DNA from: Pseudomonas azotoformans
GTDB lineage: Bacteria; Pseudomonadota; Gammaproteobacteria; Pseudomonadales; Pseudomonadaceae
Reading direction: 5' to 3'
DNA: 64,000 nt
Assembly (NCBI RefSeq): GCF_900103345.1
Contig: NZ_LT629702.1
Coordinates: 434,001 to 498,000, forward strand
Each line of letters begins with the position of its first letter. Within the stretch, counting starts at the first letter, position 1. Positions 60,582-64,000 of the stretch are shown here, piece by piece. The translations under genes and the position numbers were made by a program. The notes under the pieces were generated by a model that ran no database searches, had not been told where the DNA came from, and worked only from the letters and a program-made list of their open reading frames with translations.

Positions 60582-61988
60582 ATGCCCCAGATGTCCCGGC
60601 AAGACCCCCTGATCGAGCATCACACGGTCGATTATGTCCCTCTCGCAGAGCGCCACGGAAAGGCCCGCGACCTGTTCACCCTATGGTTCAGCACCAACAT
60701 TGCACCGCTGCCCATTGTCACCGGCGCCATGGTTGCCCAGGTGTTCCATCTCAACCTGGTGTGGGGGCTGCTGGCGATTGCCCTCGGGCATCTGCTCGGC
60801 GGCATCGTGATTGCCCTCGCATCGGCCCAGGGCCCGCGCATGGGCATCCCGCAGATGGTGCAGAGCCGGGGCCAGTTCGGTCGCTATGGCGCGCTGTTGA
60901 TCGTGTTCTTTGCCGCGCTGATCTACATCGGCTTTTTCATCTCCAACATCGTGCTGGCCGGCAAGTCCATCGTTGGCATCGTGCCGTCGGTGCCGGTTCC
61001 GGCGAGCATCCTGATCGGTGCGCTCAGCGCCACCGCCATCGGCGTGATCGGCTACCGCTTTATCCATAGCCTCAACCGCATCGGCACCTGGGTGATGGGC
61101 AGCGCGCTGCTGGCCGGTTTCATGTACATCTTCGCCCATGACCTGCCGGCGGACTTCCTCACCCGTGGCGGCTTCAATGCCGCTGGCTGGCTGGCCACGG
61201 TGTCGCTCGGTGTTATCTGGCAGATCAGCTTCTCGCCCTACACCAGCGACTATTCGCGCTACCTGCCGGCGGATATCGGCATTACCCGGCCGTTCATCGC
61301 GACCTACCTGGGCGCGACCCTCGGCACGATGTTGTCCTTCGCCTTCGGCCTGGTGGCGGCACTGGCCACGCCCGAAGGCACCGAAGCCATGGTCGCGGTC
61401 AAGCAGGCCACAGGCTGGCTCGGCCCGATCCTGATGGTGCTGTTCCTGCTCAACATCATCAGCCACAACGCCTTGAATCTGTATGGCGCAGTGCTGTCGA
61501 TCATCACCTCGATCCAGACCTTCGCCAGCCAGTGGACGCCGAGCATCAAGGTGCGCGTGGTGCTGTCCGGCGTGATTCTTGCCGGCTGCTGCGTGGTAGC
61601 GCTGGGCGCGTCGGCGGACTTCATCTCGCAGTTCATCGGCCTGATCCTCGCCCTGCTGCTGGTGCTGGTTCCGTGGGCGTCGATCAACCTGATCGACTTC
61701 TACGTGATCAAGCGCGGGGTGTATGACATTGCCTCGATCTTCCAGGCGGACGGCGGGGTTTACGGACGCTTCAATCTGCACGCAATCGTGGCGTATTTCA
61801 TCGGCATCCTCGTGCAACTGCCGTTTGCCAATACGTCGCTGTACGTGGGGCCGTGGGCCAACCTGGTGGACGGCGCAGACCTGTCGTGGCTGGTGGGGTT
61901 GGTGGTGACGTGTCCGTTGTATTACTGCTTGGCGACGCGCAGCAAAGTGATACATGCCTCGGTGGGCAAGTTGAAGTATGTGAAGTAA
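60582..61988 (+). CDS. NCS1 family nucleobase/cytosine-type permease
   Basis: 468-residue inner-membrane transporter with about 12 helices. LFTLWFSTNIAPLPIVTGAM is the NCS1 helix 1 (fWfg.N), QSRGQFGRYGALLIVFFAAL and TSDYSRYLP are further family motifs. Close to CodB-like cytosine/purine or hydantoin carriers. Linked by motif to the LLM monooxygenase and reductase, it may bring in their heterocyclic substrate. An in-frame ATG at 60591 is also possible. Confidence 0.85.
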   Translation: MPQMSRQDPLIEHHTVDYVPLAERHGKARDLFTLWFSTNIAPLPIVTGAMVAQVFHLNLVWGLLAIALGHLLGGIVIALASAQGPRMGIPQMVQSRGQFGRYGALLIVFFAALIYIGFFISNIVLAGKSIVGIVPSVPVPASILIGALSATAIGVIGYRFIHSLNRIGTWVMGSALLAGFMYIFAHDLPADFLTRGGFNAAGWLATVSLGVIWQISFSPYTSDYSRYLPADIGITRPFIATYLGATLGTMLSFAFGLVAALATPEGTEAMVAVKQATGWLGPILMVLFLLNIISHNALNLYGAVLSIITSIQTFASQWTPSIKVRVVLSGVILAGCCVVALGASADFISQFIGLILALLLVLVPWASINLIDFYVIKRGVYDIASIFQADGGVYGRFNLHAIVAYFIGILVQLPFANTSLYVGPWANLVDGADLSWLVGLVVTCPLYYCLATRSKVIHASVGKLKYVK

Positions 61989-62063
61989 ATACAGAAGGAG
62001 GCTTACGCTTGGTGGCTCGTTGCTATTATTCTCATGGCCTTTTAAGTCTTAGGGATGAGATTG

Positions 62064-64000
62064 ATGCAGTTTTTTGATCGAAAGAACGAGCCTGCGCCGA
62101 GGTCTCTTTGTGGGGGGCAGGCCAGAGCCGCCAGGCACAAACTGCTAAGGTACTTTCAGTTGGACCCGCTGGAGCGCTCGCAGACGCGATTGTCCGACAA
62201 TATGATGACGCTGAATGGGGCCGATACTCATGCCGCCCTCGCGCGACTTTTTTCGGGAAAGTGCGCGTTCTGTGAGACGTTGACTATTACGGAGGTCTAT
62301 CGCTTTCGACCCCGCTCTTCCGCGACGCCCGAGGCTGATAACGGTCATTTGTATTACACCTGGCTGGCCACTGCATGGGAAAACATCTACCCAATCTGTA
62401 GGCGATGTATTCCACGCCAGCGCGAGTATTTCCCAGTCGCGGGTCGGCGAGCGCCCTTGCCTAGCATTGAGCAACTGACCCGCTTTGCCAATAAGGGGGA
62501 GGGGCTTTGGGGAGACTATCCGATTGATGAAAAGACCCTGTTGCTTGACCCTTGTCGTAACTCAAGCTTCGACAATCATTTCTTGCCTTCGATTTCAGGC
62601 GCGCTCATCGAAATGAGCAGGATGGGTAGGGCTACGATTGAACATTTTTCACTGAATCGCCCGCAATTGGTTGCGGCACGAAAGGCACAGCTGAGCGGGT
62701 ATCGAGATGCCCTTCTCATCCACGGGCTACCCGATTTACATTTGTATCAGGTTGACAACGCCTCACTGTTCGATTTTGCCAGGATGGAATTCGGAGGTTC
62801 GTGGTATTTGCTATGTCGCCAGATTATTGCCCATCTCTCCACGATATTTGGCCTGGAGTTGGACGACTCTCGCGCCAGGATTGGCCATTCGTTCCAGCTG
62901 ATCTTCAGTAATCCACAGTTTGAGAACCATCGTGAAGATCTGTTCGAATGGTTAGAAGGCGAAAATATCAGTCGTCTTCCAATTCCAGAGAAAAACTCCC
63001 CCGAGGCGACAGAGCCCCAACAGGCAGTGGGTGTAGATAAACCTGTTGTTCCACCTCCCGTTTACCCCGTCCTGCGTTCAATCGAGTTGAATCACTTCAA
63101 GTCCATCGAACATCTCAAGTTGCACCTGGCGCAACCGTCAAGTGAGGTACTGTCCGGCGAGGTGCAACAACCAGCCATGTTGATTCTCGGGGAAAACGCC
63201 ACGGGCAAGAGTTCGATTCTTGAGGCTACAGCGCTCGCGTTGTCCAGTGTGATGACCCGCAAGTCGCTGAAGCTAGAGGCGGGTGAATGGGTGCTGGATC
63301 CGAAGCAGTTGGGTGCGTTGAACCAGGAACGACTGACTTCTGCGCAGGTTCGCCTGAGTTTTGATAACGGCCGTCAGTCGGTGCTTGATATCGATGCGGG
63401 CGGCTGGAAGCCCTTGAGGCGATCGTCAAAGGTTCCGCCGGTGTTTGCCTATGGTGCGTTCCGCCAATTTAGGAAACACGGTGGGGCTTACCAGCCTGAT
63501 CATTGCATTACCAACCTTTTTCATTCAGACCAACTGCTGCCCGATCCCGAGCCCTGGCTGGTAAACCTTGCCAGCCCGGGTGAGTTCGATGATGTGGCAC
63601 GCGCATTGCGGCTGATCCTGGCAGTCCAGGAGGAATTCAACGTCTTTATAAAGTCTGCGGACGGGACACAGTGCCTGATCGTTACACGACATGCCGATCA
63701 GGAAAGCCAGACACCGCTCAGCCAAGTGTCCTCGGGCTATCGCGCCGTGTTGGCAATGGCTTGCGACATCATGCGTCGGCTAATGGATCGCACCATCAAC
63801 CCGCACTACCAAAGCCTGGAAAACGCCCGCGCGATCGTATTGATTGATGAGGTGGAGGCGCACCTGCATCCACGTTGGAAAATTCAGATCATGGGGGCGT
63901 TGCGTGCCGCGTTGCCAAATGTGACGTTCATTGTCACCAGCCATGACCCCTTATGTGTGCGCGGCATGCATCACCGTGAAGTCGTCGTGGTGCATCGCAA
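62064..64000 (+). CDS. HNH-like/AAA ATPase fusion, Septu (PtuB-PtuA)-like, truncated at edge
   Basis: At least 645 residues; 3' end outside the window. Start at 62064 has AGGGA 8 nt upstream; an ATG at 62055 lies too close to it. Residues about 60-130 match the HNH nuclease layout of PtuB: CAFCE (67-71), ...FRPR, YYTWLATAWENIYPICRRC (with C112, C115), FPVAGRRA. A linker rich in Pro follows (about 315-345), then an SMC/ABC-like ATPase: Walker A GENATGKSS (376-), signature VSSGYRAVLAMA (556), Walker B IVLIDEVEAHLHP (Asp595-Glu596) and switch His in IVTSHDPLC. Domain order and pairing suggest a fused Septu-type anti-phage protein. The HNH catalytic His is replaced by Arg80, and the CN-K element by CIPRQ. 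Confidence 0.75.
   Translation, partial: MQFFDRKNEPAPRSLCGGQARAARHKLLRYFQLDPLERSQTRLSDNMMTLNGADTHAALARLFSGKCAFCETLTITEVYRFRPRSSATPEADNGHLYYTWLATAWENIYPICRRCIPRQREYFPVAGRRAPLPSIEQLTRFANKGEGLWGDYPIDEKTLLLDPCRNSSFDNHFLPSISGALIEMSRMGRATIEHFSLNRPQLVAARKAQLSGYRDALLIHGLPDLHLYQVDNASLFDFARMEFGGSWYLLCRQIIAHLSTIFGLELDDSRARIGHSFQLIFSNPQFENHREDLFEWLEGENISRLPIPEKNSPEATEPQQAVGVDKPVVPPPVYPVLRSIELNHFKSIEHLKLHLAQPSSEVLSGEVQQPAMLILGENATGKSSILEATALALSSVMTRKSLKLEAGEWVLDPKQLGALNQERLTSAQVRLSFDNGRQSVLDIDAGGWKPLRRSSKVPPVFAYGAFRQFRKHGGAYQPDHCITNLFHSDQLLPDPEPWLVNLASPGEFDDVARALRLILAVQEEFNVFIKSADGTQCLIVTRHADQESQTPLSQVSSGYRAVLAMACDIMRRLMDRTINPHYQSLENARAIVLIDEVEAHLHPRWKIQIMGALRAALPNVTFIVTSHDPLCVRGMHHREVVVVHR

Follow-up and report, generated by a model that had tools for sequence, protein, structure and literature searches.

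Why should the ATPase of a two-gene defence operon carry a nuclease-like domain without its catalytic residues, when the next gene encodes an intact nuclease? The question is raised by a fused gene at the end of a 64,000-nucleotide stretch of Pseudomonas azotoformans DNA (contig NZ_LT629702.1, positions 434,001 to 498,000; hereafter 'the window'), in which a PtuA-type ATPase of the Septu system is preceded, within one chain, by a module resembling PtuB, the HNH nuclease of that system. The reading favoured here, at about even confidence, is that the locus is a two-gene Septu-type operon in which the dead PtuB-like module on PtuA serves as a recognition arm and the free PtuB does the cutting. 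The features on which the argument rests are listed below; ORF denotes an open reading frame.

62064..64000, continuing to 64406 beyond the window, plus strand: fused PtuA, 780 amino acids (PADLOC PDLC00291)
62064..63059, plus strand: PtuB-like module, catalytically degenerate
62262..62273, plus strand: zinc-finger Cys pair 1, CAFC (C70/C73), present in 87/87 fused ORFs
62298..62315, plus strand: YRFRPR, replacing the EH[FY]RPK of free PtuBs
62397..62411, plus strand: Cys pair 2, CRRC (C115/C118), then Ile (I119) where the catalytic Asn is expected
62685..63059, plus strand: helical half of the module and linker, residues ~211-335, the stretch that varies most among 11 Pseudomonas operons
63060..64000, with C-terminal helices to 64406 beyond the window, plus strand: PtuA ABC-type ATPase domain
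63189..63215, plus strand: Walker A, GENATGKSS
63726..63737, plus strand: ABC signature, SSGY
63834..63851, plus strand: Walker B and catalytic Glu, IVLIDE
64410-65495 (L010:4410-5495), wholly outside the window: free PtuB, 361 amino acids, second gene of the operon, with intact EHYRPK and CIFCN

A PtuB-like module without catalytic residues

A first-pass annotation of the window had described an HNH-like module with altered catalytic residues fused to a PtuA-like ATPase, and this description was right. The ORF lies where it was placed, and the start at 62064 was preferred over an upstream ATG at 62055, because of an AGGG 9 bases ahead of it and because relatives open with MQ.F.R; residues are numbered here from the ATG at 62055 (+3 amino acids, 783 in total). 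The zinc-binding pairs first reported as C67/C70 and C112/C115 were recovered as C70/C73 and C115/C118, the Arg at the catalytic His position (Arg80) as R83, and the Ile at the CN position as I119. The ATPase motifs were likewise all found, including a fourth, TSHDP. Compared with the motif of free PtuBs, YRFRPR has Tyr for Glu (Y82), Arg for the catalytic His (R83) and Arg for Lys, while R85 and P86 are unchanged.

Structure prediction had been named beforehand as the place where an HNH fold might prove missing; instead, the single-chain model of the N-terminal module matched PtuB along most of the module's length, and the other half of the protein was predicted to adopt the PtuA fold. The module thus appears to combine a PtuB fold and two zinc CxxC pairs with the absence of the catalytic Glu-His and Asn. 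No HNH domain scored above cut-off in this module in Pfam or NCBIfam, and database records name the fused proteins AAA family ATPase or hypothetical protein, so that standard annotation hides the module. Passages of two papers report that substitution of H75 or N91 in PtuB abolishes Septu immunity (PMC13096335) and that immunity is likewise lost in an H53 mutant of another PtuB (PMC12935923). Since its catalytic residues are lost, the module of the fused PtuA likely no longer cuts.

The suggestion that the single chain stands in for PtuA plus PtuB proved wrong, because an intact free PtuB follows, starting three bases past the fused PtuA stop. This protein scored 388 bits against the PADLOC PtuB model PDLC00329 and retains C89, C92, E105, H106, R108, P109, K110, C136, C139 and N140; with its catalytic residues kept, it is the predicted cutter.

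Zinc ligands and catalytic residues among relatives

The build is common to ~100 relatives. In a first homologue set (n = 29, comprising 28 relatives and the window's own protein), the four Cys were kept in 29/29 and the catalytic Glu or Asp, His and Asn together (E/D-H-N) in 0/29, which argues that the residue loss is not chance. The fused ORF set comprised 87 sequences (84 distinct), copies of loci already included having been dropped, and residue states were read from profile columns. As aligned, the zinc Cys were present in 87, His in 12, Asn in 9 and Glu or Asp in 6, with E/D-H-N occurring together in two (L122 and L115). The Glu position was Tyr in 51/87 and the His position Arg in 60/87, and the Asn position varied freely (R, E, L, I, M, T, Q and others). 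One sequence (L096, with its copy P0025) was misaligned and scored E-D-W with Gly at the Arg column; as it reads YRFRP, the Arg is truly kept in 87/87.

The figure of 2/87 understates intact fusions, because a single scan, with patterns built on the degenerate module, supplied 77 of the 87 ORFs (two of its 79 loci gave no fused ORF: L070, at a contig end or with a broken frame, and L108, broken). A control search was therefore considered that was seeded with the intact-type module of L122 and returned 300 matches. Among the 120 of these that were listed, the four Cys and the Arg were present in all 120 and E/D-H-N was kept in 31 and not kept in 89; in the same listed matches His was replaced by N, R, Q, S or others and Asn by S, A, E or others. 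The four Cys were kept in 149/149 of the database proteins examined.

The neighbouring gene gave a different picture. A free PtuB adjoins 84 of the 87 fused ORFs, within 30 bases in 76 of the 84, and every one of the 84 keeps Glu, His, Arg, Pro, Lys, Asn and four Cys. The three ORFs without a full adjacent PtuB are L016 and L051, identical in sequence and with a truncated ATPase, and L072, at a contig end with a partial PtuB. The L051 copy (L051:6001-7842) is decayed, its ATPase ending after the signature motif and no PtuB being present. On plasmids, 16 further fused ORFs were found, none with E/D-H-N, and the free PtuBs were intact in 18/18 of the plasmid matches examined. Viral contigs gave four fused ORFs in 79 loci, one with E/D-H-N and all four with an intact partner; a search of viral contigs with the N-terminal module alignment found no relative.

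A search of 274 genomes of the class with a single PtuB protein gave two matches, one of them the window's own, and was too narrow; it was replaced by a profile. The profile was applied to a sample of 398 genomes of the phylum, of which 26 had a PtuB-like HNH, four a complete fusion and one a truncated fusion. The four complete fusions, some of whose sequences are also in the profile, had E/D-H-N in 0/4 and an intact partner in 4/4. A long HNH frame of 1144 amino acids (G143) was rejected as a fusion, being read-through upstream of a classical PtuB. Among the named hosts are Pseudomonadota, Bacteroidota, Bacillota, Verrucomicrobiota and a Planctomycetaceae bin.

Evolution of the module

On an ATPase tree (FastTree) of 154 fused proteins, 27 of them intact, the catalytic state changed at least 15 times, with 10 changes forced by well supported branches; if regain is disallowed, at least 30 losses are needed. 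Among the free neighbours examined, loss was seen in 0/106 (84 + 18 + 4, a few being copies). From the residue counts of the L122-seeded search and the state changes on this tree, the catalytic residues of the fused HNH module seem to have been lost repeatedly with the fold retained.

A sample of the fused ATPases (61 of 154) was split from 24 classical PtuAs by one branch with 98% support, 13 of the 24 classical rows filling less than half of the alignment columns. The second tree left out L129, L133, L134, L136 and L160, which are cut copies of fused genes, and two duplicates; these five rows, mislabelled as classical, had accounted for six changes in the first ATPase tree that included classical PtuAs. 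A tree built from 164 HNH cores placed fused modules and partner PtuBs in different groups (seven changes for three groups, against a shuffled mean of 69), with four exceptions, the fused L046 and L048 and the partners L122 and L127. This gives no support to the idea that the module was copied recently from the PtuB next to it.

Across the 11 Pseudomonas operons, mean entropy was 1.20 for the module, 0.56 for the ATPase and 0.49 for PtuB, with the peak in the helical half of the module (residues 211-330, mean 1.60). The median ratio of nonsynonymous to synonymous substitution rates (dN/dS) was 0.21 for the module core, versus 0.13 and 0.17 in comparison regions (43 pairs), and lay well under 1 for the core in every pair having both values. 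Judged from these substitution patterns, the module is not decaying. In strains whose flanks are ~85-98% alike, identity falls inside the module (L055/L056, L098/L099 and L103/L107), and in 5 of 13 sister pairs, hand-picked among close pairs, the synonymous rate (dS) was clearly higher in the module. Two further proteins carry repeats between module and ATPase, namely WD40 repeats in a fused PtuA of 1298 amino acids (L124:5944-9840) and TPR repeats in P0078 (941 amino acids).

A proposed role and its alternatives

Solved PtuA:PtuB complexes are 4:2 and 2:1 according to the titles of structure entries, and 6:2 in a table of a review (PMC12948488). By analogy with these, the fused ATPase likely forms a PtuA oligomer that holds the free PtuB, and each PtuA in the oligomer would contribute its own dead PtuB module. 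That module may act as the recognition arm for a phage trigger or a nucleic-acid target, and so license or aim the free nuclease; a binding or sensing role had been raised in the first-pass annotation, and we infer the same. Fast and sometimes mosaic divergence of the module, together with its WD40 and TPR neighbours, points to recognition rather than a plain structural dock, because the module is the most variable part, is not decaying and appears movable apart from the rest.

Several observations weigh against this reading. E/D-H-N is retained in some fused modules (31 of the 120 matches listed; L122, L115 and L186), which means that the basic design does not include catalytic loss. No clear dS difference was seen in 6 of the 13 sister pairs, and in 2 of the 13 the module was the more alike part, with lower dS. 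Relaxed constraint can also yield fast divergence, and the WD40 and TPR cases are one protein each.

The alternative that survives best, possible and less probable than recognition, is that the dead module serves as a structural dock that heterodimerizes with, or sits beside, the free PtuB and so sets the number of active nucleases per PtuA oligomer. Solved complexes hold fewer PtuB than PtuA, and a built-in copy could fill the empty seats; the fold retains its zinc ligands and core aromatic residues, and fusions with intact E/D-H-N exist beside a partner (L122, L115 and L186). However, a dock on a slowly evolving partner should be conserved, and the module diverges most, in some pairs independently of the rest.

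It is unlikely that the module is a built-in inhibitor, filling the seat of PtuB, or the substrate cleft, and moved aside by a phage signal so that free PtuB can bind or fire. A dead enzyme copy would be a plausible competitor, and Retron-Septu effectors are described, in passages of a review, as kept inactive by a further component until they are released (PMC12948488). However, no sign of competition was seen in this analysis, and the fusions that keep E/D-H-N would place an active nuclease in the same seat.

A re-wired active site that still cuts is very improbable: YRFRP is conserved in the largest subgroup, with Tyr and Arg at the frequencies given above and R85 unchanged, but the Asn position is free to vary and the residues are lost in many different ways across the wider family, which does not look like a new catalytic set that has become fixed. 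That the module is decaying junk after duplication is scarcely credible, for although the catalytic residues were lost many times, the four Cys persist in all 87 ORFs and all 149 database proteins examined, core dN/dS is well below 1, and the frame stays open in 87 ORFs across several phyla.

With the recognition arm as the preferred reading, a broader and more tentative proposal can be made. A large, old branch of Septu may have turned a fused nuclease copy into a dead recognition arm that chooses what is sensed or targeted, the module being exchanged like a specificity subunit and at times joined by WD40 or TPR sensors. If this is true, the Septu trigger would become mappable by swapping one module. 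In the parts of the literature covered, Septu activation and the choice of PtuB between DNA and tRNA are unsettled, and a non-catalytic, fast-changing PtuB copy on PtuA would separate recognition from cutting within one operon. The question can be approached by deleting or exchanging one module, because natural allele pairs differ mainly there.

Operon and genomic context

The operon has a G+C content of 52.5-54.9%, versus 62-63% in neighbouring genes, and is flanked by a cytosine/purine permease and an ABC transporter (60582-61988 in the window and 65533-66687 beyond it). Besides the two Septu genes, no plausible gene was found in the interval that these flanking genes enclose. In several relatives with both flanking genes on one contig these lie ~10-30 kb apart, so the site is variable; an empty-site comparison gave no clean result. 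At E 1e-20 the protein was matched in 8 of 298 sampled genomes of the family, counting the window's own; a mobile defence gene would be expected to show such a patchy distribution. Among the homologues retrieved in the searches made, none had a known non-defence role.

A second Septu pair, of the classical kind, is present in the same genome, with an unfused PtuA (472 amino acids) and a PtuB (281 amino acids) at L164:4797-7057 (C1 ~2,509,800-2,512,060), beside which lies a Gabija pair (L164:10436-14072; GajA 772 bits, GajB 790 bits). At L172:2539-4811 the module and the ATPase are encoded by separate but overlapping frames, through either a natural split or a frameshift, and the record annotates only the ATPase. 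In three plasmid operons (Rhizobium, Paracoccus) a patatin-like phospholipase gene lies within ~35 bases after ptuB and is a possible third gene (L173:6641-8338, L177:5804-7510 and L180:5953-7764). Reverse transcriptase genes lie near two plasmid copies on the opposite strand (L165:6443-7456 and L169:7420-8319; Priestia, Rhizobium).

Comparison with known systems

Septu type I consists of PtuA and PtuB (PADLOC PtuA1/PtuB1) and has no second PtuB-like module, whereas here a degenerate module of ~330 amino acids stands on the PtuA N terminus. The operon shares with Septu a PtuA ATPase with Walker A, ABC signature and Walker B, and an adjacent PtuB HNH gene with intact His and Asn (E105, H106 and N140). 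It departs from separate single-domain PtuA and PtuB proteins in the extra module on PtuA, present in addition to the free PtuB; none of the 24 sampled classical PtuAs has such a module, and all lie outside the clade of fused proteins. Gabija, PARIS and OLD-type defence ATPases have TOPRIM-type nuclease partners, whereas this operon has an HNH nuclease.

The effectors of Retron type I-A (Eco7/Ec78 and Ec83) share the PtuA and PtuB folds, but these systems have a reverse transcriptase in the operon and none lies beside this one, which has transporter flanks. Scores against the NCBIfam Ec78 models were below cut-off both for PtuA (NF041760, 108.1 bits versus 500) and for PtuB (NF041761, 33.6 bits versus 150).

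The passages on Septu in the PADLOC paper mention no more than the ATPase and HNH genes and the retron variant (PMC8565338), and no account of a PtuA with a degenerate PtuB module was found in the titles, abstract openings and passages covered (supplements not included). The PADLOC library already includes long PtuA models (PDLC00291, PDLC00288 and PDLC00292), so members are detected as Septu. The first-pass proposal of a distinct defence family does not hold at the level of sequence, because PDLC00291 (773 positions) covers the fused PtuA end to end, with 953 bits over residues 4-782, and the ATPase half has the predicted PtuA fold. The fused-PtuA operon, predicted to be anti-phage, is on these grounds a variant within Septu and not a new family.
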